From: Rhabditoides inermis
Taxonomy: Eukaryota > Nematoda > Chromadorea > Rhabditida > Rhabditidae
Direction of reading: 5' to 3'
Length of the DNA: 64,000 nt
Assembly: GCA_963966185.1 (NCBI GenBank)
Contig: CAWZYM010000337.1
Coordinates: forward strand, 164,501 to 228,500
Under the pieces are notes generated by a model. That model was given only the letters and a program-made list of their open reading frames with translations. It was not told the origin of the DNA and searched no databases. Positions 22,917 through 56,146 of this stretch are shown one piece after another (the first letter of the stretch is position 1; each line of letters begins with the position of its first letter). Both the position numbers and the translations under genes were made by a program.

Positions 22917-24515
22917 ATGCCGATGCTGCACTATGACGAGCAGATCCCAGAAGTCACTGCGTGGGAAGTGGAGAACGCTCTACGCCAGATGAAGAACAAC
23001 GTAGCGCCAGGAGAGGATAAAGTAACAAAGGAGATGCTGATACACGCGCCCAACACGGTCCCCCTACTCACAAGGACTATCAACAGGGCGTTCCAGACTG
23101 CGCAAATCCCCGATGGAATGGCTGATGGATTGGTACAACTCATCCCCAAAGCCGGCGACCCTCAGAATGTCAAAAACTACCGCCCGATAACAACCCTTCC
23201 GACACTCTACAAGCTGATGGTGCGAATAATGCTGCTACGTATTGAAAAGCAACTCGATGCTGAACAAGGAGTGAATCAATGTGGTTTTCGAAAGGGATAC
23301 AGTTCTTCGGACGCAATTGTGGCGGTCAACGACGTGATCTACAAGGCGTGTGAATATCAATTCCAAGCTGTGCTCGTCTTCGTCGACTACTCGAAAGCGT
23401 ACGACTCTCTGGAGTTCAACTACATCTGGGAGTCACTGGACAAACAGGGTGTGCCAAGCAAATACATCCTACTACTGCGACACATCTACGAGAACGTGAA
23501 CACTTCGATCCGAGTAGGAGACGAGCGAACACAGATCAAGGTGGAGCGAGGCGTTAGACAAGGCTGCATACTGTCGCCGGTACTGTTCAACTGTGTATTA
23601 GAGGAGATCACCCGAAAAGTCGACTGGGAGCAATATGGAGAGAGGAGAGGAATCAATGTCAACGGCAAACAACTGAGCAATATTCGATATGCCGATGATG
23701 TGGTGCTGTTCGCCCGAAGTGCCCAGACCGCGGAGAAGATGTTACAAGAACTCGCCGACGCGAGCAAGGAGACGGGGCTGTTGATCAACACGGAGAAAAC
23801 GGTGTGGATGAGCAACACGGAAAGGAGAAAGATCAAGTTCGAGGGAAAAGAGCTGCAGCGGGTCGACAACTTCAAGTATCTGGGACGACGGCTGTCTTTC
23901 GAGAAGGCTGCATCGCCGGAGATCGACAAAAGAATCTCGGCGGCTTGGGGCGCCTTCGAACAGAACCGACAAATGATGCGAAACAGAAACATGCCAATGC
24001 GAATGAAAAGAGCGGTCTATCACACACATGTGCTGCCGCTTTTCTTGTACGGATCGGAGTCATGGAACCTACTGAAGACCGACGAGGACAAGCTATCAGT
24101 GGCACAGCGGAAGATGGAGAGAATTATGTGCGGAATAACACTCAACCACCGCATCCGCAACGAGGAGCTGCGTAGGAGGACGAGGCTCAAGGATATCGTA
24201 GAAGAAGCAGCAAAGCGAAAATGGAAATACGCATGGAAGATGGTGCGTACGGACAAGTGGGGAACAAGGCTGATGGAGTGGAGCGGCCCACCAGACAAGA
24301 AGAGGAGACAAGGAAGGCCGTACAAGCGATGGCAAGACGAGTTCAGGGACGCGATGCCGGACAACGGAAGGTTGAAGGCGGAATGGATACGAGCGGCGAA
24401 TATGGATTATGATACTTGGATGATGAATTTACCGGCACATTGATTTCATCTTTACAGTCATTGTATATTTGTCACATTGTTGATTCCGGCAGTAATAATA
24501 AATAAATAAATAAAT
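22917..24515 (+). mobile_element. RTE-clade non-LTR retrotransposon, 5'-truncated (element 1)
   Basis: An ORF of 508 aa (22917-24443) encodes a reverse transcriptase, the enzyme that copies element RNA into the target site. RT motif A is FVDYSKAYDS (Asp at residue 157), motif B is RQGCILSPVLFN and the catalytic box is YADD at residues 258-261. The C-terminal region has the MERIMCGITL, IRNEELRRRT and GRPYKRWQDEF signatures I associate with RTE-type elements of invertebrates. The endonuclease domain is absent; the reading frame begins in the region just before the RT fingers, so the copy is 5'-truncated, as usual for such elements. The 3' end is a TAATAATAAATAAATAAATAAA tail at 24493-24515. The RT frame itself has no stop or shift. 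Confidence 0.9.
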
Positions 24516-28950: not shown

Positions 28951-29202
28951 TTGAAGAACCGTTTCGTGACGCATAAACGACGAAATACCGTCAGAATTAG
29001 GCCCCTGTATCTTCAAACCAAAAGATGGTGTGGTTCGCTACATCTCACTGTGTAAGTTTTCTCACTAACTCAGCGTTTAACCGGAGTTTTCATTTAGTTC
29101 CTTTCATCGACACCGATGATTTCTCGACTGAAGCGAAAATGAGCTAGAAATTTTACACGAACGAACATCGCCATTTGTTTTTCATGTATTCTTCTTCCCC
29201 AC

Positions 29203-36726: not shown

Positions 36727-39700
36727 TCAAAAAAAGAAGTCGTACGACAGCATCTGAAACACAATGACTATACAGCTATACACATATGCATAAACGTGAA
36801 CACTCACCTCCAACTTTCCCTCCACAGTGACTCGATCTCTCTTCCTCTCCTTCTGCTCCTTCTCCTCCTTCTCCAACTTCTCCTCCTGATCCTCCTCCTC
36901 CACCACCCTCCTCCGCCGCTCCTCCTCCCTCCGCATTCTCCACTCTGTCCTATCGACGGGTCTCTTGAACACGCACCCATACCCGCTCCCCTTCCACGCC
37001 AATTCTCCTGCTTGCATCGGGCGCTGGAAAGAAGGCAATTTGAATAAGACACCATTTACAAGACACACATAGTACCATGACTCTTTGGGTAAACACTATC
37101 CACTACGACACCTGGTATCGACAACACGATATACCAAGATGGATAACAGTGGTGTGGTGTTTTGTGAGCAAGGCGGTGTCGTGTTATCAAATGTCATTTC
37201 CCACCTGGAACACATATCTCGCCGATCCCTGTACAGACGCCGGCAGACTCTCCTCCTGGTAGCGGCTCGGGCGGGGGAATCGCGATCGCGACTTGTGGTA
37301 GAACTCCAGGTCGTCTCGCGCCTTCTTCCTCCTCTTCCTATCCACTCCCTCCTTCTCCTCCCCCTCCTCCTTCTCCTTCTCCTCTTCTTCCTCCTCGTCT
37401 TCATATCCCACCTCGTCCTTCACCTGCTCCAACCACTTGATCATCTCCAGTTCCGCCACTTCAGCTGGGCTGCGATAGCGACGCTGAAAACACAGAAAGG
37501 ATGTCTGGTCAGTCTCTTCGAAACGGCCCCTTCAAAACGCCTTCGGAACGCGACAAAACATTGTTTCGAAGGATTGAAAAGAGGCACTAGCCCCATGAGA
37601 GAGAGAGAGGGAGGGAGAGAGAGAGGGAGGGAAAGAGAGAGGGAGAGAAAGAGAGAGGAAGGGAGAGAGAGGGAGGGAGAGAGGGAGGGAGAGAGAGAGG
37701 GAGGGAGGGAGAGAGAGAGAGAGGGAGGGAGAGATCGGCCACGCATTTCGGAAGGGATTTAACCATTCACCTTGTACCGCGTCACGAAAATGTCCCCGTC
37801 TTCGGCAGTCTCAACCTTCACTGCCCCGGCCTGAATAAGAGAAATACAGTAATCCACGTTAGTTACAGTAATCCACACATCGCTACAGTAGCCCACCTCA
37901 GTCACCTCCTACCATGTTACAGTAATCTACATACAGTCACCCACCGTAGTCCTACGTTTGTTACAGTAATCTCCATACAGTAACCCATCGTAGTCCTACG
38001 TCTGTTACAGTAATCTACATACAGTCACTCACCGTAGCCAACTGCCGTTCCGCCTCTGTCTGAACCGCTTCCTCAGATCCGAGCTGATGACTGCCCTACA
38101 ATGTAGATACAGTAAGACAAGCCGAGACGAGTTGCCCGTCACCGTGTTTCGACCATTTTTTTATGCCCCACCGGATGGTAGTGAAATTCGGCAGAACAAT
38201 TGCCCGCGAAGGGAATCGAACCACCAACCGTGCGCTTAGCAGGTTTCGACCATATTGTACCGTATTGTCGTATTGATTCGAAACCCGTGTTATTGGAACT
38301 CGCGTACCGTATTACCATAAATGTGTACTCGAAAATTATCAATATCATTCCAAAAGTGCGAGAGCCAACGCACAGTGTACCGCGTGACATAAATGTCAGC
38401 GTCGCCATCCGCCGTCTCCTCCTTCACTTCCTTGGCCTGAAATGAGCTTTACAGTAACCCTTTTTTACAGTAACCCTTTTTCAGTAAATACTTTAATCAA
38501 ATAAGTTCTTTCGTAAAGTTGCACAATTCAGTATTATTGGAAAAAAGTGAGGAAAATATAGTTAAATTACCAGAAGGGCGCGCGCGCTCTCTCCTTTCTT
38601 TTGCAAACTTTCACGGTCTGATACTGTTTGCTCTATTTTAATACTGTTTTATCTAGCGCGCAGCGCGCTAGTCCTTGTCCTGAAAATGATGTAAGTTACT
38701 GTAACCCCGCGATAATTACGACATTACTACATCACATTGTACAAATTACAGACCTTACAGACTTATACGTTACAGGTACATACGTTTCAGCTAGACCAGA
38801 TACGTTACCGTTACAGGTACATACGTTTCAGCTAGACCAGATACGTCACCCACCTGCGTCTGCCCGCAGCAAGGCTCCTGTCCATAGTCATCCGGCGGTT
38901 CCGCTTTCACTATCAGCCACTTCTGAAGTGGCAGCGGTCAAGTCTCTTTCCTACTCACAGAATGTTTTCAAACTACCTGAGGTTCGAAACCCATTTCAAC
39001 TGCTTCAAACTATTTGCGAACTCTCGAAATGATTTCATCTGTCCTCCCAACTACCTCAAATTACTTCCGAATAGTCCTAACCCCTGCCCCATCTAACCGA
39101 TTCCGAGTTCAATGATTTCCACATATTGACCACGACTAGTAACAGCAGCATCAACCGGTCAACAGCACCACATCTCTCCCACCCCCCCCCCCTCTCTCTC
39201 TTTCGCTCTCTCTTCGCCGCAAATTTACTCGATTAATATATGCATGCTTATCGCTAGCAACGGTGCTATACTCTGCGCCAGAGCGATAGTTTTCGATCTA
39301 CCTCGCTTGCAGTTCGGAATACGGTGCCATAACCGTCTGCCTCTCTTGTTTTGCGCGCTATTGCCGTAATCTGACTCTCCGTCTGCCATCGATCTACCCC
39401 ACAGCGCGCAACTTATTGCGAGAATAGAACCATATGTAGCCTACCACCACCTCTTCCGGTTCTCCGACCAGCGCGCGCGACACAGGCAGACACTCGTCCG
39501 ACTGCCGTGTCAGAACATCACAGACACTCTCCACTTCCACAGCAGTCACCCTGCTGCCGTCGTCCGAAACATCATAGCCCAGAGCATCCTACAAGCAATG
39601 GGTAAAGAGATCCTCACAACAACAACAACAACAACAACAAACAACAAACAAACAAACAAACAAACAAACAAGAACAACAACAAGGATTTCACCTCATCCA

Positions 39701-40632
39701 TGAGCCCTCCGAACAGTTCGTCGACAGCCGCGTCTTCCATACGCTCCTCATCTTCCAGCGACACATCGAGATCGAGCAGCTTCTGAAAACTCTCTCCCCC
39801 TCTCTCTCCCTCCCTCCCTCCCTCTCTCTCTTTCTCTTCCTTTTCCCTCTTCCTCTCTCCTCCCTCTCTTTCTCTCTGTCTCCCTCCCTCTCTCTCACCT
39901 TCTCTGTCTGTCCCTCGCTCCCCTCTCTCTCTCTTCCTTTTCCCTCCTCCTCCTCTCTCTCTCTCCCTCCCTCTCTTTCTCCCCCCTCTCTCTCCCTCGC
40001 TCCCCTCTCTCTCTTCCTTTTCCCTCCTCCTCCTCTCTCTCTCCCTCCCTCCCTCCCTCTCTTTCTCCCTCCCTCTCTCTCCCTCGCTCCCCTCTCTCTC
40101 CCTCGCTCCCCTCTCTCTCTTCCTTTTCCCTCCTCCTCCTCTCTCCCTCCTCTCCCCCTCTCTCTCTCCCCTTGTCTGTCTGTCCCTCCTCCCTCTCCAC
40201 CTCCACACTCTCCTTCTCCTTTCCCTCCCCAGTCGCACAGATCCTGCTCATACAGCGTATCGCAGCCTGTCTCCGCGTCCTTTTCACGTTCCCATCACTC
40301 AGCACCGGAGTCTTCTGCAACTAGTTTCGCAAATCATAATACAATATGCCGTTTAACAACAATAAAATGAAACATGATATGAAGATGTACCGATGTGCTT
40401 CAATTACTACACCCACCTGTGACACAGTCTCCTCCTTCAGCCCCACTTCCCCCTGCTCCTTCTCCGTCTCCCTCTTCTCCATCCTCCTCCTCCTCGACTC
40501 GAGGTCCCTCTGCCTCTTCCTCTCCCTCCTCCGCTCCCGTTCCTCCTTCCTTCTCCTCCTGTACTCGCCGTCTCTCTGTCGCTTCCTCTCACGACGAGCA
40601 ATGTCCTCCAACGACATCTCCTACAAATCAGC

Positions 40633-40683
<51 letters not shown>

Positions 40684-42590
40684 TAATAATGATAATATTT
40701 ACTACCGTGTATACTTAAAAGAGAATTAACGTCATAAATAGAGTGATTACGGCAAATGCGATTGGGATCGGAAAACAAATAAACACAAAACATAAAATCA
40801 CACATTTATCCAGAATCATTTATCCCAGCTTCATAGCGAGACGTTTATGTTCTGTGTAATGAGATTATGGATAAAGTTTCCGATTTTATTGTTTTTTGGA
40901 TCCAGAATCGCTTATTCCTGTGCATATTGCACACAAGGTTTGGTTAGCTTATCGTATCACATCAATCCCTCCTCTCTCCCCTCCCCTCCTCCCTCTCAAT
41001 CTTTATGTCTCCCTATCTCTCTCTTTCCCCCTCCCTCCCTCCCTCCTTCCGCCTCCCACCTTCTCTGCATTCCTCTTCCTCTCCCGATATGCCATATCCT
41101 TTGCCCTCTGTTTCTCCCTCCACTCTGCCGCCGCCGCCGGATTCCTTTCTCGCTCCTCCTTCTTCCGCAGACGGTACGCCTACAAATACAGTATCCATAC
41201 AGTAAGAACTGTTAGAAGAAGTAAATTGATGAAGTGATTCTCAAGTTGCGGTCAGTCTCTTCGGAACACCACCGGAAGGCCTTCGAAACACTTCGGAAAT
41301 GCTTTTCGGACCGCCCACATAACACTCCCGGTTTGCCTTCGGAATACTACATTTTGGAATGCAATGCTATTCCTTCTAAACACTTCGAAATCACTTTCGA
41401 AGAGACTGACCGCATATTTAACTTTTATCTGGAATCTCATTATCATACAACGTACATTACACACAAATTCACGAACCCTGCAACGCTCATTGTGCTGTTC
41501 CTTCCGATTAGGTCGCACCGCATTCGGGCGGACTTCCGGCGGTGTCACCACCGACTCGATAGAAGCCGTCTCGTCACCAGCTCCAGCGGTGATCTAAAGG
41601 TGTGGCCAGTGAGCATCCAGTTCATTCGAAACGCAGCCTTCAAAACGCTTTGCGAAGGGAGTTTCAAAGAGACGGACTACTATAGTCGGATTGGATCCTA
41701 TATGCCATCCGTGACATTTCACATGTTGTGCAGTTTCGTGCAACACAACGTGTATTCTCTTTCGAAAAGTACAGGAGTAAAAAGGAGTGGTTTGTTTTGA
41801 TCTAATTCAACAAAAGCACATGCATATTTTTTTCTTCGCAGCTGACTAAAATTTCAAAACAAACCTGCTCTTTCAAACGATGTACTATGAAATGTTTCAT
41901 AACTATGAAATGTTTTTGATCAGATATACGCATGCAAATGCATAAAAATTTAACAACAAAAAGGTCTTTTATTTTAAATTATTATAGTACATATTACAAT
42001 TACATATGTTCGCTTTTTTCATCGATTAGAAAGAGCAGGTTTGTTTTGAAATTTTAGTCAGCTGCGAAGAAAAAAATATGCATGTGCTTTTGTTGAATTA
42101 GATCAAAACAAACCACTCCTTTTTACTCCTGTACTTTTCGAAAGAGAATGGATGTCCTTTTCTCAAATTTCGAAGAAATTTTGTACATTAGATAACGAAA
42201 ATACATATTACAAACTCACTAGTCAGAATATCATGCTATAAAGATACAAATAACTTACAATTTACAATACTCACAATTAACAATTCACAAATACACAGAC
42301 ATAGTAACAGTCACTGATAACAGTCACGTCAGTAACTTGAAAATCTTCGAAAACTAGTACACTGACGTATCCAAACTAGAGAGTCTTCGAAAACGTAGTC
42401 AGAATCAGGAAACGAACAGCCTGGTCGGATCGCTCATTGACGATTGATGCGCTCTATTTCGCTTATCTAATAGCCCTCTCTCTCACTCTTTCCCCCCTCT
42501 CTCTCTTTCTCTCTCTTTCTCTATCACTCGCCCTTCTCTTTTTCTTTCCTCTCTCTATCACTCCCTAACTCTCATTATCTCTCCTTCTCC

Positions 42591-42630
<40 letters not shown>

Positions 42631-45600
42631 TTTCTATCTCTCTCTTTCTCAATCTCTTTCTCTCTCCTCTCTATCACTTTTTCTTTCTCTCTCTCGTTCT
42701 CTCTCTCAGAGCATATCGTGTTTTATTCTCCGCTTGAACACTCTCTTTTTCTACCCTCACTGTTCTCTCTAGACACAGAAAGACAATCTTCAGATTTTGA
42801 GCTAATGAACCTTCGGTCATGAATAGCCGGACTGGGTGCGTTGAACTGAACTCAGCTAGCTTTCTTATACGGTTATTTTCCTGTGTTTCTGGTATTACTG
42901 TTCGAACTGAGGAGTTGCACAGAGAACAAAACAGCGTCATCCGGCCTGCTTTCTGCAATTCGCACGTTTTCTAACCGGCAAGTCGGTAAGAGAACATGCG
43001 CTCTCTCACTCTCACACTCTCTCTCGCCGAGATCGTTCGATCAGATAACAGGCCGGCTGCCCAGTCACTCGCCAGTGGACATGAGAGAGTGCGCAGAGAG
43101 TGTGCGCTCGCAAGAGACGCCAGAGACGGCGCGCGATCGATCCGACACGAGAGTGGGTGAGCGAAGGGCGGGGCATGCGCTCGGCCAATCAGTTTTCACC
43201 GGCAAGAGGCCGAGAGACCAATAAGCGCAGAGTGCAGTGGGCGGAGCTTACGTGATGCACACCGTCGTCGCCGCCGCCGCCGTCGTAAACACGTTTAGTG
43301 GCAAAGCGGGAGAGAGCGAGAGAGAGGCTGTTCTGGGCGCCGCAACCGATATTTATTCAACAAATCATACTCATAGGTCTTACAAAATGATACCCTAACA
43401 CATAACACACTCTAATGAAGTATATTGTATTATGATAGCCAAATAGCGTGTGGATTGGGAGTGGCGCGCTGCGCGCGCCACTGATCATAACAAACGGGCG
43501 GCGCTGGCGCGCCGCCCCTAATGTCTTCAAATATCCAAAACGCTTTGTGAGAGGGAATCGAACCCGTGGGCAGCTCGAACGGATCGCGCGCTGGCGGCGC
43601 GCTCTACCACTGCGCCATTGAGGCTCATGCAGAGAGGTCATTGAGTTTCGCAGATATGTTTGCTCGTTATCTCTCATCATTGTACACTGAAAAGGCCAGT
43701 GGAGCTAGATGGGCTCTCTCTTCGATCTCTTAACCACTTCCTCTATGGAGCAGTGGCAGTGCGCGCCGCTAGCGCACAATCGCCGCGACCTGTCCACGGG
43801 TTCGATTCCTACTCATGGAAGCGTTTTGGATATTTGATGACATGCATGTTGTGTTGCACAAAACTGCACAACATGTGAAATGTCACGGATGGCATATAGG
43901 ATCCAATCCGACTATAGTGAAACAGAAATGTGAGAATAGAATAGCATACATAATACATAACCAGCTTACGAACTCTCACCTCTTCTCGCAACTCCACTCG
44001 CTGTTCCTTCTGCACTTCAGCTCCAGTCGACATCTCCTCGCTCTGAGATACGGCACTCTCCTTCTTCTCCATCTCCCGCTCCTGCACGTGCTCCGGCTCC
44101 ATCTCCTCCACCCTCTCCTCCTCCTGTTCCCTCTCCATCTCCTCATCCATCTCCTGTCCCTTGAGTTCCTCCTCCTCCTCCTCCCTCTCCTTCTCTCTCG
44201 CCTGCTCCTTCTCCTGTTCATTTGCCAACTCCGAGGCATTCGGAGACGGACACGGGGTGGCGTCACGCTAAACCAGTCAGTAGCTACACACCAACCCGTC
44301 CACTTACCTCCAAGTCATTCACTGGTGATCCCGGCGAATCCACATTCTCGTCCTCTACCTCTCCCCCTCCACCCATCTGAAAGCACCAAATACTTCCAGT
44401 CAATAGTGATACCATTCAAATTACTAACCCGTCCACTTACCTCCAAGTCATTCACTGGTGATCCCGGCGAATCCACATTCTCGTCCTCTACCTCTCCCCC
44501 TCCACCCATCTGAAAGCACCAAATACTTCCAGTCAATAGTGATACCATTCAAATTACTAACCCGTCCACTTACCTCCAAGTCATCCACTGGTGATCTCGG
44601 CGAATCGACTGCCACATTCAGGTTATCTAGACGGTCCTCCTTCGTCTCTCTCTCTCCAACCTAAAAGCACCAAATCATTCAGGGATGTTTGTTTGTTGAG
44701 TGAGTGAGTGAGTGATTTGTTTATCAGCGACATACAATGTTAAAGGATGTATCCGGACAATGTATTGTTCCCTGATTATCAGGATGAGGTCGCTTCCGTT
44801 CTCTACAATGAAGACGTGTTTGGAGGAAAAAATTAGTAAAATACAAACAATTTTTCACGTTCATACAGTTTCAAAAGAAGGTTTCATTGACGAGAACAAA
44901 AGCAACCCCAACCTGAAGATCAGGCAAGGGGAATCATTCCAGTCCATACTGCCACCCACACCCACCTCTCCTCCACTTGGCAGCTCAGCATGCAGCTCCA
45001 CGGCCGGATCCTTCTCCTGCTCATTCTCCTCCTCCATCTCCAAATGTGTATCTTCCTCTTTCTTCTTCTCCTCCTCCTCCCCCTTCCCCTCCACAATCTT
45101 CGCAGGACGCTTCCTCTTGCGCCGAGCAGTGTCTTCCACCCTCACAACCAGCTCGTCATCAATCGAACTCGCACTCTGAACAACACCTTACACATCACTC
45201 TTCCAACTCGTTTCAGTTTCGATTCGCCGATTGAATCCGGGATCCAGCTTGTCGACCACAAGATACACCACATCTACTATGACTATAGGAAGCAAGTGAC
45301 TAGACACGGGAGGAACTGTTCGGATTCCTCCCTACTATCAGTTGCAACGCACCGGCAGCGTCTGTTTCCTTTGACGAAAGCCGCGAGTCGACCGAGCGGG
45401 GACAGCGGCAGGACGGGGGCGCCCCGCCCATCCTCCTCCATCTCCTCCGCCGTCCACCTTCTGCTCGTCCGTCTGCCCTTCTTGGACAGCCCCACCCTCC
45501 TTGACCGTCTCAGCGGCCGCACGATGCTGCTGCTGCAAAGTTTCGTACAACACGTGCTTCACTCAATCCGCACATTTCTATTTTTTCATTTCATTGAACA

Positions 45601-48600
45601 ATTTTCGTGTTTTTTCGCGTCTTCGCGATATGTGCGCCCATCTACCATCAACCATCCATCAGCAATCAGGACCTGCGCCGCACTGTTCCAGATTCAACTT
45701 CCCACCGTAGAATATTGTGTGTCGTACCGAATCATCAAGCCAACATTGTCGGAATCGGACTAATAAACAACAAACAAACAACAACAACAACTTCAGCCTA
45801 CCCACAATGGTTCGGAGGTGTTGTCTGCTGGGGCGGTGGGGCACGCGACTAGGCACCACCGGCTGCGAGAAGACTACTCTATCGGGGAGAGCAGAAGAAA
45901 CCGCATCCGCGTCGCTAGCCTAAACACAGCACCATGAGAAATGGACAAAACAGAGCGCAACCAAGCGACTACTGTCGAGGGACTATCGACGGGAGCGGCC
46001 GGACCACACCCACCCCACATCAACGCATCCCCCGAACAAGAGAAAAATTTGAAAATGAATCTCTTCTAACAACTAAACGAGAAACACAATTAGAGAGGGC
46101 GCGCAGCGCCCTCTCTCTTGGGTTAAAATAAGGCTCGCGCCAGAATTTTCAAGTAGCGATATCCAAAGGACATGTTAGCAACAATGTGAAGTCTTCCAAT
46201 TTATGTTAGTTAGATTCGCACGGTTCCATAGGGCAGATCACTAATTGACGGCATCTTTGTATCTTTTCTCCGAAAGAAGTTATGAGCGATCTCGCACTCG
46301 CACTAGGCGAAAGGCCAGCGTGTGGGTGGGTGGGTGGGTGGGTGGGTGTCGTTTCCAGTCACGCTAGCTGATAGCTAGCCCTCTGCTGGCGGGCGAGCGC
46401 GAGAGCACGCGAGAGAGCACGCTGTTTGGAGAGAGACAGATGTACTTTGGTGGCTGCGATCAGTAGGAATTTAGTAAGGGGAGAGAGAAAGAGAGAACGA
46501 GAGAACGAGAGAACGAGAGAACGAGAGAACGAGAGAACGAGAGAACGATATAACGAGAGAAAAGGAGAAAAAGAGAGGAGGGAAGGAGGGAAGGAGAGAC
46601 GGAGAGAACGAGAGAACGAGAGAACGAGAGAAGGATAGAAAGAGAGAACGAGAGAACGAGAGAACCAGAGAAAGAGAGAAAGATATAAAAAGAGAACGAG
46701 AGAGCTAGAGAACGAGAGAAAGAGAGAAAGGGAGAAGGAGGGAAGGAGGGATGGAGAGAAGAAGAGAAGGATAGAAAGAGAGAACGAGAGAACTAGAGAA
46801 CGAAAGAAAGAGAGAAAGAGAGAAAGAGATAAAGAGAGAACGAGAGAAAGCGAGAACGATATAACGAGAGAATTAGAGAACGAGAGAAAGAGAGAATGGG
46901 AGGAGAAGGGAAGGAGGGAAGGAGAGAAAGAGAGAAAGAGAGAACGAGAAAACGAGAAAACGAGAGAAAGAGAAAACGAGAGAAAGAGAGAACGATATAA
47001 CGAGAGAGCTAGAGAACGAGAGAAAGAGAGAAAGGGAGAAGGAGGGAAGGAGGGATGGAGAGAAGAAGAGAAGGAGAGAAGGAGAGAACTAGAGAAAAAA
47101 GAGAAAGAGAGAAAGAGAGAAAGAGAGAAAGAGAGAAAGAGAGAAAGAGAGAAAGAGAGAAAGAGATAATGAGAGAAAGAGATAATGAGAGAACGAGAGA
47201 AAGAGAAACCGATAGAAAGAGAAAACGAGTGAAAGAGAGAACGATATAACGAGAGAACTAGAGAACGAGAGAAAGAGAGAAAGTGAGAAGGCGGGAAGGA
47301 GGGAAGGAAAGAAGGAGAGAACGAGACAACGAGAGAACGAGACAACGAGACAACGAGACAACGAGAGAACGAGAGAACGAGAAAACGAGAGCACGAGAGA
47401 ACGAGAGAAAGAGAGAACGATATAACGATATAACGAGAGAAATAGAGAACGAGAGAAAGAGAGAAAGAGAGAAGGAGAGAAGGAGGGAAGAAGAGAAGGA
47501 GAGACGGAGAGAACGAGAGAACGAGAGAACGAGAGAACGAGAGAAGGATAGAAAGAGAGAACGAGATAAAGAGAGAACGAGAGAACGAGAGAACGAGAGA
47601 ACGAGAGAACGAGAAAACGAGAGAAAGAGAGAACAAGAGAAAGAGAGAACGAAAGAAAGAGAGAACGATATAACTAGAGAACGAGAGAACGAGAGAAAGA
47701 GAGAAGGAGGGTGGTAGGAGGGAAGGAGGGAAGAAGAGAAGGAGAGACGGAGAGACGGAGAAAACGAGAGAACGAGAGAACGAGAAACGAGAGAACGAGA
47801 GAACGAGAGAACGAGAGAACGAGAGAAAGAGAGAAAGAGAGAAAGAGAGAACGAGAGAACGAGAGAAAGAGAGAACTGGAGAACTAGAGAAAAAGAGAAA
47901 GGGAGAAGGAGGGAAGGAGGAAAGGAGAGAAGAAGAGAAGGAGACACGCGAGAACGAGAGAACGAGAGAACGAGAGAACGAGAGAACGAGAGAACGAGAG
48001 AACGAGAGAAAGAGAAAACGAAATAACGAGAGAACTAGATAACGAGAGAACGAGAGAACGAGAGAAAGAGAGAAAGGGAGAAGGGGGGAAGGAGGGAAGG
48101 AGAGAAGGAGAGACGGAGAGACGGAGAGAACGAGAGAACGAGAGAACGAGAGAACGAGAGAAAGAGAGAAAAGAGAGAAAAGAGAGAACGAGAGAAAGAG
48201 AGAAAAGAGAGAAAGGGAGAAAGAGAGAACGAGAGAACGAGAGAACGAGAGAACTAGAGAACGAGAGAAAGAGAGAAAGGGATAACGAGAGAACGAGAGA
48301 AAGAGAGAACGAGAGAAAGAGAGAACGAGAGAAAGAGAGAAGGAAAGAAGGAGGGAAGGAAGGAAGGAGGGAAGGAGAGGAGGAGAGGAGGAGAGAAGGG
48401 GAGAAGGAGAGAAGGAGGGAAGGAATGGGAGGAGAGAAGGAGGAAAGGAGAGGAGGAGAGAAGGAAAGAAGGAGAGAAGGAGGGAAGGAATGGAAGGAGA
48501 GAACGAGAGAACGAGAAAATATCGAATAAATTTGAAATGAAATTGATGAAATAATGAGAGAAGAACATGTTACATGTATGAAGACGAGAGAGAAAATTTC

Positions 48601-50257
48601 TATGAAATTCAACAAAAGGACATATATTATCTTTTAAAAGTACTTCCGTAAAAAGTGTTGTTTGTGTTAACCTGATTCAAGAAAAGCGCATGCATATATT
48701 ATTAATTTTCGAAAAATCAAATCGTAAACACCTGAACATGAAAACTAACACAAACTTGCTCTTTCAAAACGTTGAATAATTTTTGAATAATTAATGTTGA
48801 ATAATTCCATGTTTTATTTTTTTGACATTTTTATACCTGAAACATTGAGTCAAACAACATCACGAATAACATTTTATTTTACTGATAAACCATAAATAAT
48901 AAACCGCAAAAAACACTAAATAAACAAAACAATCGTATTATTCTGAATGTTACGTGTAACTATTCTATATTCGTTTGAAAGAGCAAGTTTGTGTTAGTTT
49001 TCATGTTCAGGTGTTTACGATTTGATTTTTCGAAAATTAATAATATATGCATGCGCTTTTCTTGAATCAGGTTAACACAAACAACACTTTTTACGGAAGT
49101 ACTTTTAAAAGATAATCCCTGTTTCGGTCCATTATCCTGCACACAGGCTACATCAACGTATGTAGCACATATACAACGTACTATGCGCTACAAACAACAA
49201 CTTGACAAAGGAACCAACCACGTGCGGCGGCAGCGGTGGCGGCGGCGGCGGGGCCAAGAGCCGGCTGCCGTTAGACTTGATGGGCTGCTGCTGCAGCAAA
49301 TCACAGTCAATTACACATAGTAGTAGAAACACTGAATATTTCAGTCGTTGTATAATCGAGTTCACGATCATCCGAAAACAAGACTCTGTCTTGTTTTCGG
49401 CTGATGAGAACAATTGGCGAATAGGAAATCACACCATCACACCACCACACCATCATATCACTCACACAACCCACACCTCCACTCCTGTACACCAACACAC
49501 CACCCACACCACATATAGGAAATAACACCACCACACCGTCACACCACCACACCACTCACACAACCCACACCACCATAATACCACACCATCAACATCATCA
49601 ATCGTAGAAAATAGTGTGGTTGTGTTAAGTTGTGGTGGTGTGATGGTGTTATGTTGTGGTGGTGTGGTGGTGTGGTGGTGTGATGGTGTGGTGGTGTGAT
49701 TGTGTGATGGTGTGAACTCCATATTGCCAGAACAATTGGTAGGTATACATTCTCTTTTTAATCTTTACGAATAGTGTTAGTGAGAGTGAGAATGAGATGA
49801 ACGCAATATCAACAATGAAAACCACCAACTTCGACCCTACCCGTAGCTAAACTGTGCTTCTCCCAGCGCTTAGCCCTTGTGGCGTACCGTATGCACTTGT
49901 TGTATAGTCAGGAATCGGGATATAGCAATTTTGGATGATTGATTGATTGATCGATTGAACACCACCAACGCACCGCATAGGACGTGGGCGGCGCGACGTG
50001 GAGTGGGAAGCGGACCCTTCGAATGGTGGGCCGGTGGGTGGACTGGAAGGGCTGGTGACAGCGAGCGTAGCTGGCAGGGCGGAGAGGCTGCGGCTCCACC
50101 AGGCGGGACAACTGGAGGAGGGGGTAGAGGGGGAGAGGGAGAGGAGAGAGGAAGAGAGAGAGAGGGAAGGAGAGAGGTGAAAAGGAGAGGAGAGAGAGCG
50201 AGGGAGAGAGAGAGGGAGAAGAGAGAGAAAGAGAGAGAGAGAGAGGGGGGTGGGAAG

Positions 50258-50301
<44 letters not shown>

Positions 50302-53181
50302 TCCTCCCACCTGCATCTGTCCACTCCTTATATCGTCGCAGCAGCTCTTGAGTGCGTTGAACTGCTGCTGCCGCCACACTGAGATCTCCCTCACATTGAA
50401 GTGCTTCCAAGCCTGCAACAATGAATGCAACCATGAGTGAATTAGACAAAATTATACAGGAAAGAGTACATGTAATTAGCAAGACACACATCCGGTTTCG
50501 GTCCCTTTCACCAGACCGAATGTGTGATCCTACAATTTTGTTTTATTCATTTATTATTACTGCCGGTATCAGCAATATAAGATTTTCCGACTTCCGACTT
50601 TTGTCCATGTTTTTTCAACGCAGAAAACGGAAAGAGTGGAGAATATAGTGATAGAAACAGCAAATTTCGCCAACTTATTAGACTTAGTAGCTCATTTTGT
50701 TTTACCATTTCCACTTTTTCACACAATCGTATTATCACTCATTTCGCCAGTGTGTATCCACAATTCTTGCATACTCTATTAAACATACATGCGATAAACT
50801 TATCAATAATCAATCAATAACTCAATAGTCTCCCACCGCGATCTCGAGTTGGTCGAGTTGTAGTACCCACAGGCCCAGACGCGACGACACCCCCGCAATG
50901 CCAGGCTGCAAACAGAAATATGTGGAATAATAAAAATAATTTTGCATATTCTATTAAAATACATGCGATAAACTTGTTTACATATCAAAGAAGAGGTAAA
51001 AAGATAGACATGATCGGCTTACCAGTAAGTTCTTTTTCAAGGAGCTGATATAATCATAGAATCTGTCCGCCCAGTCGTCTCGGGAAGTATCTCGCATCCA
51101 GTGGAGTATCTCGCGCACATACTGAAAGAAAGCGATTTCATAAAGGTAAGGTAAAAGTAGCCCCCGATCGAGAAGAAGACTAAGGCACGACAACATGGCT
51201 CAGCGATTTTTCGCTCAGTAAAATATCCAAATCTTCTCACTACAGAATAGACAGGCGCAATGCATTACACATATACTAACTACCCAAAACCCAAGTTCGA
51301 GGAAACGTCGAAGTAAACATTTCTCTCACGCTAAATCGGCTGATTCGAACACAGAACACAGGCTTGCGACTCTCGGAAACGAGTCAGTCAGAATACCTAC
51401 TTCACCCACCCACCTAGGACGAAGAGTGTGTCCCAAGCCTTTCAAGATCTTGGCCTACGTAAACGTATGCTTACTTTCACATTGTTGTGATTGTGATGTC
51501 ATGTTCAGGAATAAAGATTCCGGATGAATCTCTGACTTTAACGCCCACCCATACCTTCAAAGGCTGCGTGTGGATGAGCTCAGAGTTCCACTCGCGAATC
51601 GGGCCGTCTCGCGGTGCCTGAGACAGAAATGTATGATCATGTGTGAATCAGTGAAATCGTACCTCCTAGATAACCCTCATTTGTTCCCTCCGTCCTAAAT
51701 TAGATGAGTGCTCATTTGGGAACTTGTGTTATATGTTTTATCATGTTTTGTGTTTATTTGTTTTCCGATTCCGATCACATTTGCCGTAATCACACTACTT
51801 ATGACGTTAATTCTCTTCTATAAAGTATACACGGTAATAAATATTATTATTATTATATCCACAAGTATAGTCAGAATCAGCGAGTGCGCCCTTGACCACG
51901 CGCAGCCGCCGCCGCAGCGCGCGGATGGTGGACACGCGACGCGGCCTGCACCCTCGCACTCTCGTGAGCCGATGAGCGGACAGCGGGTAGTGGATAGTCC
52001 CCTGTATCTGTTTAACCACTTACCATGTGGTGATGGTCCGAGTGAGGCGGCGCCTGCCTGCGCACCGTCCTGCTCACACATACGTGTGCAGAGTGAGCAT
52101 CGCGCGAACCGCGTGCGTCTCCGTCTCTAGTAGCCACGTCTCGTCTCAGCCACGTCTCCACGACGTCCGCTGGCGGCGAGTCGCTCTGGCGCGCCTGCAA
52201 ACCACTCATCTGAAGCTCACAGCGACAAAGGAAGGACAAAACGAAGCCTGACCAAGGTATAACACATGACACACGGTGACTAACGAGGCCTTACCTGACT
52301 GATCTGACCGATCTCACCGCTCTGACTGCGGCCTGGCTGCGCCGACCGTGCAGTTGTAGCCAGCTTCCTCGCCGGTGGCGCCGCGACATTGTCGCTCTGA
52401 AGAAGCGGTCAGTCTCTTCAAACGACTTCGAATTGCCTTCAAATGACTTCCAACGACTTCGTATTACTTGCGATGCGATTACCTTGCAACCTGCAACGTC
52501 TTCGAACTACTTCGGATTACTGATGATGTGTTTAAAGAGACTAACCGCGCATTGAAGAGCCGCGGATCCTCTCCCTCCCGCCACCGAGCATCCCACATCC
52601 GCTGGTGGAGAGTCGCTCTGGCGCGCCTGAACTCGTTATTCCCACCATCTATCACAATATGCGATCCAATGCGATTCTGGATGAACCTTTGACCAAACCC
52701 TTCTGGACACACCGTGTTTGGGCTGTTTTGACCCTGGCCATTCTACCTTTACCTACCTGCCCCCACTGTGCTCTATGTTTCTACCTTGTGATGTACCGTA
52801 CGCACTTGTTGTATAGTAAGGATATATCGATTTTGGATAACTGATTGATTGAATGATAAATGATACCTGTCCATCTCTCGTCGTCTCCTGTTCGACAGTG
52901 GGCAGGGACGGCGGGCGGGCCGGGCGGGTCGCACTCTTCACGGGCAAGGCAGGCAGCGAGGGTGCGGATGACATGACGGGAACAGAAGAGGGGTGATCAT
53001 CGCCTTGCATACTCGCCTTAACATCTTTATCTCTCCTCCTCTTTCTCTTTTTCTCTCATTATCCCTTACTCCCTCCCTCTCTCCCTCCCTCCCTCCCTCC
53101 CCTCTCTCTCCTTCTCCCTCCCTCCCTCCCTCTCCTCTCCCTCCCTCTCTCTCTCTCTCTCTCTCCCCTCTCCCTCCCCTC

Positions 53182-53232
<51 letters not shown>

Positions 53233-56146
53233 ACCTCCTCCCCCTCCACCTCCTCGATCCTCACTCTCACCATCTTCCTCTCTCCTCCCTCTCCCTCTCC
53301 TCTCACCTCCTCTCTCCCCCTCTCCCTCCCCCTCCCCCCTCTCTCCCCCTCCCCTCTCTCTCTCACCTCCTCCCCCTCCACCTCCTCGTTCCTCACTCTC
53401 ACCATCTTCCTCTCTCCTCCCTCTCCCTCTCCTCCCCTCTCACCTCCTCCCTCTCTCCTCCCCCTCTCCCTCCACCTCCTCCCTCTCCTCCCTCCCTCTC
53501 CCATCTCTCTCTCTCCCCTCCCCCTCTCTCTCCCCCTCCCTCTCCTCTCACCTCCTCCTCCTCCCCCTCCACCTCCTCGATCCTCCTCCTCAGCTTCTCG
53601 CACTGCTTGTCCCATCGCAGCACCCTCACCATGTCGTCTCCACTCGGGCTCGGCAGCTCGTAGATAGCGCTCATCTGAAAATAAAGTACGAGAGTGGCAT
53701 TGTACATTATACAAATACAATAATAGTAATGGAATCTATCTGCTGTGTTGTGTGCATCAGTCAATCAGTCAATCAGTCAATCAGTCAATCAGTCAATCAG
53801 TCAATCCGTCAATCAGTCAATCAATTGGAATAATATTGATTGAACCGATCTCAATCTCAATAAGAGAACCATAGCAATCAACCAATCAATCAAGTCAGAC
53901 AGTCAATCGTCAATCAGTCAGTGAATCATTGAATCAATATTCAGAATAAGATAGCAATTAGAAACAATTGTAAAAAGAAATGTGTCTCGCAATATGGTGG
54001 ATCAAAATGGAGATGGATGTAAAAACAAGAATGAAGAAAACGAACCATAGCTTGGCGGGCGGCAATCTCTGCGCGCAGACGGCTCAGCGAGTTCGAGGAC
54101 AGCACCTGAAAAAGCACACCTGGCTGGTAGGTACACACATTCGGTCTGGTGGTAGGGACCGAAAACCGGATGCGTGCTATGATTTTTTTATAGAACTTCT
54201 TTTGATTTTCTTGGAATCTAACCGCGCTGAAGGCACCACAGAACAGGCTACAGGCTTGTGTGGAGATGTAGTTGCCGTCAGTCTCTTTGAATAACTCCCG
54301 AATACCCCCCACCCCCCCCCCCCCCCCCCCCCCGAACACTTCAGGATGCCTAATTATGCCTTCGAAACACTCCCGACCCCAATGGCTTTCGAAGAGACTG
54401 ACCGCACCTTGATCAGAGGTACCGCGAGATAGACTAGTTTATTACGAGGCATTTCGCAAGTAGTTTGAAGTGGTTGGAAGGCATTTCGGCAGCACTTACA
54501 CTGGTACTAAGTCTGGTACCAAGTCTGGTGCCAACACCAAGTCGACCCACCTGCTTCCACTGGTTCAGCGGCTGGCAGATGGCGACACGACGCTGACGCG
54601 ACACTGCCACCTGAGTGTGACTGGTTATCGATTGATTATTGATTGTTGATTATATCGACACCATATAGTGGCTGATCAACAACAGACAACATCATTCACT
54701 GTAATATGACCAATTAGCCTAGGGCCAGCTCCACATTTGCGATAGTTCGCTATTTTTTCACATATTCGTGTATGTTACAGTCACGGTAGATAAATACTAA
54801 TATTATTATGGTTTTATTCTGGGGATTAGTTGGGAGCCTTGTACATTTGACTACAGAAATGAAGATACTCATTTTCCGTGCGGGACCACACACCGGACAG
54901 TCGGCGAAAATGATCTCGCAGGTTGCATTCTCGAAAGCGCTTGGTCATTTTTCGCTGGCATTGGATAGATCCGACATCATTTTCACCGACTGCACGGTGT
55001 GTGGTCCCGCACGGAAAATGAGTATCTTCATTTCTGTAGTCGAATGCACAACGCCTCCAACTATCCCCCTGAACATTACTATATCAGCCCTTGCAGTGTA
55101 CCGTATGCACAATGCAACCATACCGTCTCGCCGGTGACCACTTTGTCTGCTGTGCCAGTCGGGAGAGACTGCGGCGACGACGCCGGCGCGCGCACCAATC
55201 CAACCACCTTCACCGGCAACTTGAGCGTGTGGGGGATGCGATGCGGCGGCGGCGGAGGCGGCTGGCTCACCGACACCGACTCCACCTGCATAAAACCGAT
55301 ATGGGGTTACGCAGTCTAAACCCCTAGTGTTGTATACCCGCTGTTGTATTACTGATCATTATATCATTTCAATCTACAGTAACTCGGTCACCCACCGTAT
55401 TCTCCCGCAGCGCTCGCTTCTTGGCAGGTGGCGGCGGTATTTGGGCTGGGCGAATCGGTGGCAGGAGAGGGGCAGCGATAGGCTGTGGCGGGAAGGCCAC
55501 ATGCGGCAGCCACTGAACGCGCGCTCAGTCTCTTCGAAAACCGTTTCCGAAGTACATAGTTCGAATTAGTTGGAGGGTATTCGCAAGTAGTGTAAAGTGG
55601 TTGGGGGCATTTCGGGGGTAGTTGGGAGTAGTTGCAAGGCAAGTTGAAAGGCGTTTTGCAAGGCATTTCGGAGGTAGTTGGGAGATATTTTGGCAGTAGT
55701 TTAAAGAGACTGACCGCTACTTGAGGCACTGAGACCACCGAACCAGCAGGCAGTACAGACCAGTCTTCAACACACTCCACACCGGCGCCATCCGATCCCA
55801 CCTGCACAAACAGGCATGATGAATGGTTTCCACTTATTTATATAGTTCATGGTTTAGATATGATTCAACTTCTCCAATCTCCATTGTCATAGTTCACAGG
55901 CCTGTTTGCTCATACCTCCAATGAAATAATTTCAGTCATTTTGCTCAAGTGAGATTACTATTGAATGATAATTTCATGTGTGCCGCATCCTTGTGGAGTA
56001 ACACAAAACATTTCAACTTCTACATCACATTTTACATCTACCGTAATCCATCGACCCACCGAATCCTCATCTGCCTCTTCCACCACCGGCACTTCTCGCA
56101 TGCGCTTCAGCATCTCAGCCTTGGTTCGAACTTGTCTCGGTTCCAT
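36727..56146 (-). CDS. Very long unrecognised gene, at least 37 exons, Glu/Arg/Pro-rich protein
   Basis: Exons in gene order: 56146-56060, 55801-55721 (or 55715), 55512-55396, 55285-55124, 54610-54551, 54105-54046, 53674-53552, 53016-52867, 52626-52546, 52396-52295, 52194-52024, 51617-51555, 51121-51023, 50905-50837, 50412-50311, 50111-49974, 49290-49219, 45919-45806, 45532-45353, 45175-44966, 44660-44574, 44509-44441, 44376-44308, 44267-43980, 41593-41519, 41179-41060, 40620-40417, 40314-40201, 39782-39693, 39588-39445, 38922-38854, 38436-38374, 38095-38033, 37830-37771, 37483-37205, 37023-36808, 36753-36727 (TGA). Every one is 3n with phase-0 GT-AG borders; total about 1,430 aa. The N-terminus is MEPRQVRTKAEMLKRMREVP. 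Notable parts: a Pro-rich PPPPPPHRIPHTLKLP region; RWDKQCEKLRRRIEEVE coiled coil; a folded-looking block (YVREILHWMRDTSRDDWADR ... SSRLGLWVLQLDQLEIA ... AWKHFNVREISVWRQQQF); RRKRKRPAKI basic patch; long Glu/Arg coiled coil; RRERKRQRDGEYRRRRKEE; C-terminus MLSYDFFF. Exons near 51.9 kb are unresolved. I cannot name the family; a nuclear scaffold is a guess. It could also be two adjacent genes. Confidence 0.68.
37592..37735. repeat. (GA)n/GAGGGA simple repeat in intron
   Basis: About 140 bp of GAGA/GGGA repeat in the intron between exons 37830-37771 and 37483-37205; it inflates open frames on both strands. Confidence 0.9.
37830..38436 (-). repeat. Internally duplicated exon module (ETA-D-DI-VTRY)
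   Basis: Exon 38436-38374 (AKEVKEETADGDADIYVTRY) and exon 37830-37771 (AGAVKVETAEDGDIFVTRYK) are clear duplicates. Short repeated TACAGTAATC.ACAT phrases fill 37850-38040 between them. Confidence 0.8.
38195..38260 (-). repeat. tRNA-like fragment inside intron
   Basis: The minus strand has GCTAAGCGCACGG and B-box-like GGTTCGATTCCC; no full cloverleaf. Confidence 0.4.
39608..39675. repeat. (CAA)n/(CAAA)n microsatellite in intron
   Basis: CAA triplets pass into CAAA quadruplets directly next to exon 39782-39693. Confidence 0.9.
39783..40200. repeat. CT-rich simple repeat filling an intron
   Basis: About 415 bp of CTCTCTCCCTCC with a repeated CCTTTTCCCTCCTCC phrase (five times) between exons 40314-40201 and 39782-39693. 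Confidence 0.92.
40637..40805. repeat. Short interspersed element with (ATA/TAA)n end, copy 1
   Basis: (ATA)n at 40637-40684, then ATTTACTACCGTGTATAC, GAGAATTAACGTCATAA, GTGATTACGGCAAATG and TCGGAAAACAAATAAACACA. The same sequence lies inverted at 51735-51868, including the triplet-repeat end. Confidence 0.8.
41248..41413. mobile_element. MITE family C, full copy in an intron of the long gene
   Basis: Ends GCGGTCAGTCTCTTCGGAA and TTTCGAAGAGACTGACCGC, 166 bp. The interior is a run of degenerate CTTCGGAA / CTTCGAAA repeats. It lies in the intron between exons 41593-41519 and 41179-41060. Confidence 0.85.
41754..42185. mobile_element. Foldback element, family F (copy 2)
   Basis: Arms 41754-41880 and 42020-42149 are inverted copies (ATTCTCTTTCGAAAAGTACA; AACAAAAGCACATGCATAT). 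The right side has the family tail GATGTCCTTTTCTCAAATTTC, then GAAGAAATTT, a small hairpin. Confidence 0.82.
42470..42710. repeat. CT-rich simple repeat in intron
   Basis: About 240 bp of CTCTCT/TTTCTC sequence. Confidence 0.9.
43040..43300 (+). promoter_or_regulatory. Possible promoter-like island inside an intron
   Basis: A CpG-rich block unlike the AT-rich intron around it, with GCCAATCAG (about 43182), GACCAATAAG (about 43216), GGGCGGAGC and TTACGTGATG, i.e. two CCAAT boxes, a GC box and a CRE-like site in about 80 bp. No transcript start is visible. It may be an internal promoter or simply part of the surrounding repeat. Confidence 0.3.
44301..44660 (-). repeat. 133-bp exon-plus-intron tandem duplication, three units
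   Basis: Starts at 44301, 44434 and 44567. Exons 44376-44308 and 44509-44441 are identical (MGGGGEVEDENVDSPGSPVN...). Exon 44660-44574 is a diverged third copy (...VAVDSPRSPVDDLE). Each unit carries its own GTAAGT donor and TTTCAG-type acceptor. Confidence 0.9.
46321..46350 (+). other. G-quadruplex-forming run
   Basis: Six consecutive GGGT blocks (TGTGGGTGGGTGGGTGGGTG...) meet the classic four-G-tract rule on the + strand. The location is within an intron of the long gene, next to the GA minisatellite. Confidence 0.7.
46470..48530. repeat. 2-kb GAGAACGAGAGAA minisatellite in an intron
   Basis: About 2 kb built from GAGAACGA / GAGAAAGA octamers with recurring GGAGGGAAGGAGGGA blocks every 100-200 bp, suggesting a higher-order unit. 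It lies in the intron between exons 49290-49219 and 45919-45806. The long Ser/Leu- or Arg/Glu-rich open frames here are repeat artefacts. Confidence 0.95.
48580..49116. mobile_element. Foldback element, family F (copy 4, reversed tail)
   Basis: Arms 48625-48760 and 48980-49116 are inverted copies (TATTATCTTTTAAAAGTACT; GTGTTAACCTGATTCAAGAA). Here the one-sided tail is on the left: the minus strand reads ATGTCCTTTTGTTGAATTTC, then ATAGAAATTTT. Confidence 0.82.
49365..49405. repeat. Perfect 13-bp stem hairpin
   Basis: CCGAAAACAAGAC, a TCT loop, then GTCTTGTTTTCGG at 49372-49400, in an intron next to the CACCACA inverted region. Confidence 0.7.
49430..49720. repeat. CACCACA / TGTGGTG inverted simple-repeat region
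   Basis: About 140 bp of ACCACACCATCACACC-type sequence is followed by about 110 bp of its reverse-complement type (GTGGTGTGATGGTGT), so the two halves can pair into one long imperfect hairpin. Confidence 0.85.
50112..50306. repeat. GA-rich simple repeat filling an intron
   Basis: GAGAGAGAGG repeat spans almost the whole intron between exons 50412-50311 and 50111-49974. Confidence 0.9.
51735..51868. repeat. Short interspersed element with triplet-repeat end, copy 2
   Basis: Inverted copy of 40637-40805 (TTTGTGTTTATTTGTTTTCC, CATTTGCCGTAATCAC, TATGACGTTAATTCTC, GTATACACGGTAATAAAT, then ATTATTATTAT). Confidence 0.8.
52024..52626 (-). repeat. Duplicated exon start (ARQSDSPPADV)
   Basis: Exons 52626-52546 and 52194-52024 of the long gene begin with the same 11 residues and nearly the same DNA; further downstream they diverge. 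The intervening DNA includes the MITE-filled intron at 52397. Confidence 0.82.
52405..52548. mobile_element. MITE family C that makes up an intron
   Basis: Ends GCGGTCAGTCTCTTCAAA and TTTAAAGAGACTAACCGC, 144 bp. The intron is 52545-52397 in gene sense. The exon ends ...GCG and the intron starts GTTAGTCTC, so the 5' splice site lies three bases inside the element's terminal repeat, and the acceptor CTTCTTCAG lies just beyond the other end. Nothing else is in the intron. Confidence 0.82.
53035..53551. repeat. CT-rich simple repeat in intron, with duplicated exon pieces
   Basis: About 500 bp of CTCTCC repeat. The minus strand includes two copies (about 53235-53275 and 53362-53405) of the GAGGAGGTGGAGGGGGAGGA-type end of exon 53674-53552, each with a following GTGAGA, so decoy 5' splice sites exist. 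Confidence 0.8.
53757..53830. repeat. (CAGTCAAT)n tandem repeat
   Basis: About nine octamers, with looser CAATCAAT-type repeats continuing to about 53930. Confidence 0.92.
54274..54405. mobile_element. MITE family C with long poly-C
   Basis: Ends GCCGTCAGTCTCTTTGAA and TTTCGAAGAGACTGACCGC. The interior has a C-rich run of about 30 (54305-54334) in place of some CTTCGAA units. It lies in the intron between exons 54610-54551 and 54105-54046. Confidence 0.8.
54821..55069. mobile_element. Foldback MITE, family B (copy 2)
   Basis: Terminal arms of about 60 bp (GGGGATTAGTTGGGAGC ... GCCTCCAACTATCCCC) with GAAATGAAGATACTCATTTT and GGGACCACACACCG inside; matches 8797-8998. It lies in an intron of the long gene. 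Confidence 0.85.
55521..55717. mobile_element. MITE family C that makes up an intron
   Basis: Ends GCGCTCAGTCTCTTCGAAA and TTTAAAGAGACTGACCGC, about 197 bp. The intron is 55720 (or 55714) to 55513 in gene sense. If the donor is placed as GCG/GTCAGT inside the element end, as in the 52.4 kb copy, frame is still kept (two extra codons). The acceptor GCGCGTTCAG abuts the other end. Confidence 0.8.

Follow-up and report, generated by a model that had tools for sequence, protein, structure and literature searches.

We consider it somewhat probable, at roughly 60%, that a general MITE of Rhabditoides inermis, which inserts at TNA, occasionally makes frame-preserving introns when it lands in exons. 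Outside the window (the whole 64,000-nucleotide stretch of DNA analysed, C337:164501-228500), copies of this element were found in predicted coding exons at three loci, with frames open on both sides, and two of these loci have intron-less or empty relatives. From the preserved frame and the splice-like positions we infer that the spliceosome would use the sites described below.

Ends, target site and empty sites of the element family

The genome searched was an assembly of 172.6 Mb in 599 contigs. Wnt genes mark it as that of an animal: PF00110 had 12 exon-level matches here and none in 14 control genomes. In the window, the 14-mer GCGGTCAGTCTCTT was present 17 times when up to three mismatches were allowed, compared with a mean of 5.67 in shuffled sequence, and 0 of 100 shuffles reached 17. 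Facing pairs of ends were located at 41248-41413, 52405-52548, 54274-54405 and 55521-55717, with one further, unpaired end at 37505. The preliminary description had reported terminal-repeat pairs at or near these positions; their exact sequence was confirmed, giving a total of four full copies and one partial copy (Table 1). Genome-wide, the exact end GCGGTYAGTCTCTT occurred in 642 + 689 copies, against 1 + 0 for the reversed control pattern, and the window repeat is a real, genuine element family. The element can be written AGKWGYGGTCAGTCTCTTCGAAAC...CT, empty sites elsewhere in this genome having fixed its boundaries. When 139 of the 161 ends from the first loci were tallied, they gave the longer terminus AG(G/T)(T/A)G(C/T)GGTCAGTCTCTTCGAAAC immediately after TNA. 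The terminal inverted repeat (TIR) is 24 bp, and perfect 24-mers of two TIR types were present in 160 and 154 copies genome-wide. The 100 elements sampled were 61-318 bp in length, clustering at 112-113, 123 and 188 bp, and their commonest end pairings were AGGT with AGTA (27/100) and AGGT with AGTT (16/100); lone unpaired ends were frequent among the matches.

Insertion of the element leaves a 3-bp TNA duplication. Equal flanking triplets were observed in 32 of 100 elements (12.6 expected from shuffling) and, in an earlier subset of pairs with TNA at both ends, in 16 of 37 (8.5 expected, p=0.0025). TCAG-flanked right ends were sampled at 47 places, a set that includes the related copies L064/L068 and L101/L102; the left end was recognisable in 37, and TCA was also found on the left in 19 of these 37. 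Copy L100 on contig C264 has three relatives on C266 with 97% identity and without the element. One of these empty sites was aligned and reads ...CCCTGACC TGA ACCTGAC..., whereas the filled C264 sequence is TGA-[AGGTGCGG...CGCTACT]-TGA. Copy L083 (C112) has an empty counterpart on C111 with 100% identity over 100 nt. Empty sites were searched for with the joined 50 + 50 nt flanks of the 32 equal-triplet elements; among the 40 of 376 candidates scored, the three relatives of L100 were recovered again, L038 and L044 gave partial, less similar repeats, and no empty site was found for L064 or for the two window copies W1 and W2. At least one insertion is recent, because the empty place on C111 is 100% identical to the flanks of L083. 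An 8-bp target site duplication (TSD), suggested by the first flanks, was dropped, as the pairs and the empty sites both give 3 bp. Recent gene duplications were noticed at C10 (605 kb and 613 kb) and C266 (95, 101 and 107 kb), where copies with and without the MITE act as natural empty-site controls.

The family is short, TIR-bounded and dispersed in many copies, and its target site duplication is proven by empty sites; it is a non-autonomous TIR DNA transposon (MITE). The preliminary description had called the element a DNA transposon, and this was borne out because TIRs occur together with a 3-bp duplication demonstrated by empty sites. A vector or other outside source was rejected: the 20-bp end had no exact match in viral contigs, and its single exact match, in a Thiocapsa contig, is about what chance predicts in 257 billion bases. 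Three forms of the end sequence had no occurrence in the open-licence literature, where no report describing this MITE family was found either.

PIF/Harbinger (Tourist-like) MITEs are short, have TIRs and leave a 3-bp TSD, TWA. The present family is alike in its short TIRs and 3-bp TSD, but its TSD is TNA rather than TWA. The transposase domain DDE_Tnp_4 (PF13359) had 41 matches genome-wide. Of these, the 26 on contigs as far as C317 were compared by eye with perfect ends, 100 of 160 (to C283) and 100 of 154 (to C317) being listed, and no match lay within 6 kb of a listed end. The 3-bp TSD would fit a PIF/Harbinger partner, and no linkage to one was seen among these 26 of 41 matches. No transposase was seen within TIR-bounded stretches of 0.7-7 kb, considering the longest ORF only at sampled loci of more than 5 kb. 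Identical score (78.4 bits) and span were shared by 14 of the 41 PIF/Harbinger-type matches (e.g. C10:757121-757582), which suggests a recent burst of another transposon.

Copies within predicted coding exons

In the mechanism proposed here, the MITE would land in an exon at TNA and leave the 3-bp duplication. The upstream TIR would then provide a GT donor, which follows the first 2 nt of the element for one TIR type (AG^GTGCGG) and the first 7 nt for the other types (GCG^GTYAGT). The acceptor AG would be composed of the second TSD copy and one or two host bases after it. An AGGT end would leave 2 nt of the element in the mRNA, and a TNAAG target would return the mRNA to its original length (0 nt); the GCG^GT donor would leave 7 nt, and a TNAG target would result in +6 nt. 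Once the GT...AG stretch was removed, the mRNA would thus differ in length by 0 or +6 nt, the frame would survive and a new intron would be born. A more far-reaching version, which we hold only tentatively, would make the element a two-way intron maker with GT at both of its palindromic ends, working in either orientation at exonic TNAAG or TNAG targets and adding exactly 0 or 6 nt. This general-purpose, recently active transposon would then have produced tens of new introns genome-wide, an extrapolation from the three exonic loci outside the window and about 100 sampled copies.

Coding character was scored with a codon model trained on 724 codons from 20 stretches judged coding by eye, including the flanks of L064 and L072 and parts of the window gene, and then extended to 20,780 codons over the sampled loci; the model recovered, as judged by eye, Mn-SOD, an NSUN-like methyltransferase and a DEAD-box helicase. 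At the first locus, on C10, two copies 8.8 kb apart (L072 and L073) are both filled and show two differences over 651 bp. The joined L072 sequence would be ...EREMVVVL AAG^GTGCGG...CAACTTGAAG^GAG CGC..., with junction LK^ER and a net change of 0 nt, and its flanks scored 22.4 and 13.4 bits, values that are partly circular since the stretch seeded the codon model. The right end of L072 carries 2 extra nt; its plain flanking triplets are TGA and CTT, and a TGA duplication would be read across a 2-nt insertion. The intron-less paralog L111 (C229) aligns without a gap at the junction, with 41% identity (MSVRLIERNDKLTVEC against MVVVLK/ERTGRLTVEC, the slash marking the site; protein across the site, ...MSVRLIERNDKLTVECY against ...MVVVLK/ERTGRLTVECF in L072). 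Just upstream, L072 and L111 have an intron at the same place (FEK^, by eye), and both of these introns are very short, 43 nt (36-78) in L072 and about 47 nt (72-118) in L111, also by eye; this genome probably splices tiny introns. Two places on C104 that span the L072 site as well, at E=1.1 and 3.0, were given no evidential weight. The L072 piece produced only a match at E=0.4 against PDB, and only BTB (L009) exceeded the cut-off among the host-gene pieces scanned against Pfam.

At the second locus, L064/L068 (C8 and C10), the sequence reads ...VERL AAG^GTGCGG...CTTGAAG^GGC.... In L064 the frame is coding to the left and right of the junction, with scores of 18.2 and 19.8 that are likewise partly circular (seed stretch). 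One extra base after the TGAAG acceptor gives L068 an in-frame stop; this copy would either be broken or use a different AG. No empty relative of L064 or L068 was found in sequence searches, including the flank search with its 40 of 376 candidates scored. At the third locus, L100, the joined sequence ...GTT CAA GTA GCG^GTCAGT...CTTCAG^GTC AGG... would have +6 nt (scores 10.3 and 6.5), and 3 of 3 differences between its exon and the empty copy are synonymous (codons by eye); one of them precedes the insertion and two follow it. Insertion into a predicted coding exon that is uninterrupted in a relative was thus observed at two loci, L072 against L111 and L100 against C266.

The exonic copies could instead be recent disruptive insertions in null alleles or pseudogenes, undecayed and unspliced. 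The recent activity indicated by the 100%-identical empty place, the three empty copies of the C264 sequence on C266 and the stop in L068 are all compatible with this, yet we regard it as unlikely: L072 and L073 are both filled and near-identical with coding sequence conserved on either side, and the differences at L100 are all synonymous. The L072 element, moreover, departs from the TIR consensus at both ends, and this divergence suggests that it is not brand new.

Frame-preserving GT and AG were present at 5 of 5 exonic loci considered (W1 and W2 included; L068 is the exception inside one), the sites being weak. Because W1 and W2 came with the preliminary description and L072 and L100 were obtained via the TCAG search, this is a selected set for which no p-value is claimed, and the 5/5 is suggestive. 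Simulated insertion at 870 exonic TNA sites gave the frame-preserving arrangement by chance in 26-41% of cases, depending on the end. The junctions are of phase 0 in the chosen frames, those of W1 and W2 being uncertain. ORF listings across the candidate junctions looked mostly non-coding and were excluded as evidence.

The strength of the putative donors was compared with donors at coding ends. A tally of 89 donors that required A/G at +3 and G at +5 consisted of GTGAGT (17), GTGAGC (11), GTGGGT (11), GTGCGT (8) and GTGCGG (4), among others. In an unfiltered tally, which is biased because loci were picked by an end containing GTCAGT, observed and expected counts were 33 and 2.2 for GTGAGT, 23 and 20.5 for GTC with G at +5, 7 and 3.4 for GTCAGT, 1 and 0.3 for GTTAGT, and 4 and 2.7 for GTGCGG. 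Coding ends show no clear enrichment of GTC or GTT donors, and GTCAGT, which is without the A/G at +3 of the local GTGAGT type, is a poor donor in this genome. The TIR variant AAG^GTGCGG fits more donor positions than GCG^GTCAGT, but GTGCGG itself was seen only 4 times for 2.7 expected. Non-canonical AG-AC splicing is known from Fritillaria; such splicing was set aside here, as GTGAGT is strongly enriched at coding ends.

The window gene and its two candidate introns

Features of the window are listed in Table 1. For the predicted host gene, no relatives were found at E<=0.001 (residues 1-330 of the 1037-aa model; 7988 candidates scored), and three pieces of it (227, 54 and 165 aa) had no Pfam match above the cut-off.

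Table 1. MITE copies, putative splice signals and host gene in the window (coordinates of the window)
Feature	Position	Strand	Evidence or remark
MITE W1, 152 bp	52401..52552	-	TIRs, TGA/TGA duplication; inside predicted gene; candidate intron 52397-52545
W1 TSD, downstream copy (TCA, gene strand)	52398..52400	-	sequence; with next host G, putative acceptor CTTCAG^
W1 TSD, donor-side (upstream) copy	52553..52555	-	flanking triplet
W1 putative donor GCG^GTTAGT inside TIR	52540..52548	-	2.3 bits, PWM; first intron base 52545
MITE W2, 205 bp	55517..55721	-	TIRs, TGA/TGA duplication; flank coding support weak
W2 candidate intron	55513-55714 (GCG^GTCAGT) or 55513-55720 (CAA^GTAGCG)	-	sequence
W2 TSD, downstream copy (TCA)	55514..55516	-	sequence; with next host G, putative acceptor GTTCAG^
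W2 TSD, donor-side copy	55722..55724	-	flanking triplet
MITE copy, 174 bp, in predicted intron	41244..41417		flanking triplets TCA/TTA
MITE copy, 140 bp, with poly-C tract	54270..54409		flanking triplets TGT/TGA; in an intron according to the preliminary description
Single TIR end CTGGTCAGTCTCTT, partial copy	37505..37518	+	14-mer match
Coding stretch QARQSDSPPAD adjoining W1	52595..52629	-	repeated at 52163-52197, 3 differences, all synonymous in preferred frame
Predicted multi-exon host gene, start 56146	36808..56146	-	crude gene finder; low-complexity E/R-rich protein

The TGA/TGA duplication at W1 and W2 corresponds to TCA on the gene strand. For W1, the joined sequence would be CTT CA(A TGC GCG^GTTAGT...CTTCTTCAG^)AGC, which adds 6 nt while the flanks stay open. 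The codon scores were 4.0 and 8.6 in the chosen frame and 8.7 and 4.0 in an alternative frame, and the first frame was preferred because the QARQSDSPPAD repeat differs only synonymously there (3/3). For W2, the joined sequence would be CCT CA(A GTA GCG^GTCAGT...GCGTTCAG^)TGG with +6 nt, or alternatively CAA^GTAGCG...TCAG^ with 0 nt; its flanks scored -5.2 and -3.2 in the frame continuing into the exon model, and 7.3 and 4.7 in the other open frame. W1 is a probable and W2 a possible intron of the MITE-made kind, the exonic status of W2 being weak.

The preliminary description had presented both stretches as introns, with donors in the terminal repeat and a CAG beyond its other end. The signals are there on the minus strand, GCG^GTTAGT...CTTCTTCAG^ from 52545 to 52397 and GCG^GTCAGT...GCGTTCAG^ from 55714 to 55513, and the frames are open. 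The end given as 55720, however, belongs to CAA^GTAGCG, where a second GT begins 6 nt away from the donor named, and of the splice sites said to be encoded in the TIR only the donor can be there, the acceptor consisting of duplicated target and host bases. A crude gene finder run on the minus strand drew neither intron, and coding support is moderate for W1 and weak for W2. The gene finder used the acceptor at 52396 but joined it to a donor near 53070, placed W2 within a longer intron, and put a doubtful 26-nt exon in the poly-C part of the 140-bp copy. For W2 the test was unfair, since the acceptor cut-off of -2 excluded its acceptor at 55512 (-2.2). The signal models also penalise C/T at +3, and the CAA^GTAGCG donor (-3.0) was below the cut-off too. 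The W1 acceptor likewise had a low score in the gene finder PWM (2.0).

This gene model would suit an ordinary MITE with no intron-making role, whose window copies lie inside longer, older introns and whose donors and acceptors are chance features of TIR and target; the weakness of the donors points the same way, as does the genomic distribution described below. We nevertheless consider this rather unlikely, as it is a misfit with L072, L064 and L100; at each of these a single open frame of coding character takes in the two flanks, and two of the three have intron-less or empty relatives.

Several other features were observed in the window. An inverted repeat at 48626-48768 / 48974-49116, with 143-nt arms that are 100% complementary and a 205-nt spacer, is a candidate for a recent foldback element or another MITE family. 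Inverted repeats at 41754-41877 / 42026-42149 (124 nt, 99%) and 54807-54918 / 54972-55083 (112 nt, 86%), both in the same gene region, are candidate foldback elements. Two reverse transcriptase ORFs on the plus strand, 22863-24440 and 29143-30888 (PF00078, 2.6e-35 and 4.7e-39), are probably non-LTR retrotransposons. At about 46490-48570, a purine-rich unit of 8 bp (GAGAGAAC-like) is repeated in a long array with several frames open by composition only, and a 133-bp tandem duplication (99%) at 44290-44555 adjoins a predicted exon. An ORF on the minus strand at 61084-61452 with a galactosyltransferase-type match (PF02709, 1.8e-06) is part of a neighbouring gene.

Genome-wide distribution and comparison with introners

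Outside the window, 71 usable elements were obtained from places selected solely through the 14-mer, together with their neighbours. Both flanks were coding in 2 of these 71, namely L064 and L068, which are two copies of a single locus, compared with 132 of 2686 control TNA sites (p=0.58); by this measure, copies that would amount to introns end to end were no more frequent than chance. A coding edge was present at 14 of 71 elements against 304 of 2686 control TNA sites (one-sided p=0.029). With a score-6 threshold, elements were depleted between coding flanks relative to random positions (5/99 against 13.9% of 4000), the 99 elements including the window and the TCAG-selected loci. A non-coding upstream and a coding downstream flank were found for 6 of 32 TCAG-flanked elements (L045, L074, L075, L076, L082 and L094) and for 118 of 1154 random TCAG sites. 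As this is no clear excess, a preference of the element for older 3' splice sites was rejected; copies at such sites would be in keeping with an ordinary MITE.

The family is a general MITE located mainly outside exons and not a dedicated introner, because most sampled copies have non-coding flanks and no excess was found between coding flanks; the same distribution would also be expected of a MITE without any part in intron creation. The preliminary description had made an excess at exon borders its test; this excess proved at best slight at coding edges and absent between two coding flanks. Its proposal that the MITE creates introns is supported in so far as some other copies lie in predicted coding exons with a frame-preserving GT...AG, and is not supported as regards a dedicated introner family. 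Such a family, selected to create introns and the main source of recent introns here, would account for the TIR-borne donors at both ends, the frame-preserving geometry and the slight coding-edge excess, but is very improbable given that only one locus in two copies outside the window lies between coding flanks, a share not above that of random TNA sites, and that unpaired single ends are common. It was rejected as the main reading for lack of enrichment between coding flanks.

If the preferred reading is true, namely that a general MITE occasionally makes introns in exons, then intron creation could arise as a side effect of an ordinary MITE and would not call for a specialised element. Since this recently active animal MITE has empty relatives within one genome, intron birth would become observable and testable step by step, and the simple target rule would predict which exonic insertions keep the frame.

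Introners are intron-making elements that are mostly consistent with DNA transposons, and Gozashti et al. (2022, PNAS; PMC9860276) counted 27,563 of them in 175 of 3,325 genomes. In the passages of that survey drawn on here, animal introners are rare, with only two groups named among animals and land plants, both of them animals; in some families the element brings one splice site with it and recruits the second from the TSD, and in Aureococcus codons are added in frame (+12 nt). The present element is like these introners, which are short, many with TIRs and/or TSDs, in carrying one site and taking the other from the TSD. Introners, however, form sets of similar introns, whereas only a small share of the copies here lies between coding flanks, and the MITE was not filed as a dedicated introner because it fails this family-level test of copies coinciding with introns. 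Relative to the surveyed introners, its proposed particulars are a TNA duplication, a donor in the TIR at either end, an acceptor from TSD plus host bases, and a change of 0 or +6 nt.

The introners of Symbiodinium and Chrysochromulina have a 4-bp TSD, with one site carried and one co-opted, in contrast to the 3-bp TSD here (PMC9860276). Those of Symbiodinium have TIRs as here but carry the 3' site instead of the 5' site, and those of Chrysochromulina carry the 5' site and co-opt the 3' site, as proposed here, but have no TIR (PMC9860276). The introners of Amoebophrya are similar in being inverted-repeat introns with short direct repeats at their borders, but their splice sites are diverse and non-canonical and they lack inverted repeats specific to a family, whereas the present case concerns one family and GT-AG (PMC7789003). 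By analogy, this MITE would resemble the class of introners in which the 5' site is part of the element and the 3' site is co-opted, with TIRs and a TNA duplication in the present case.
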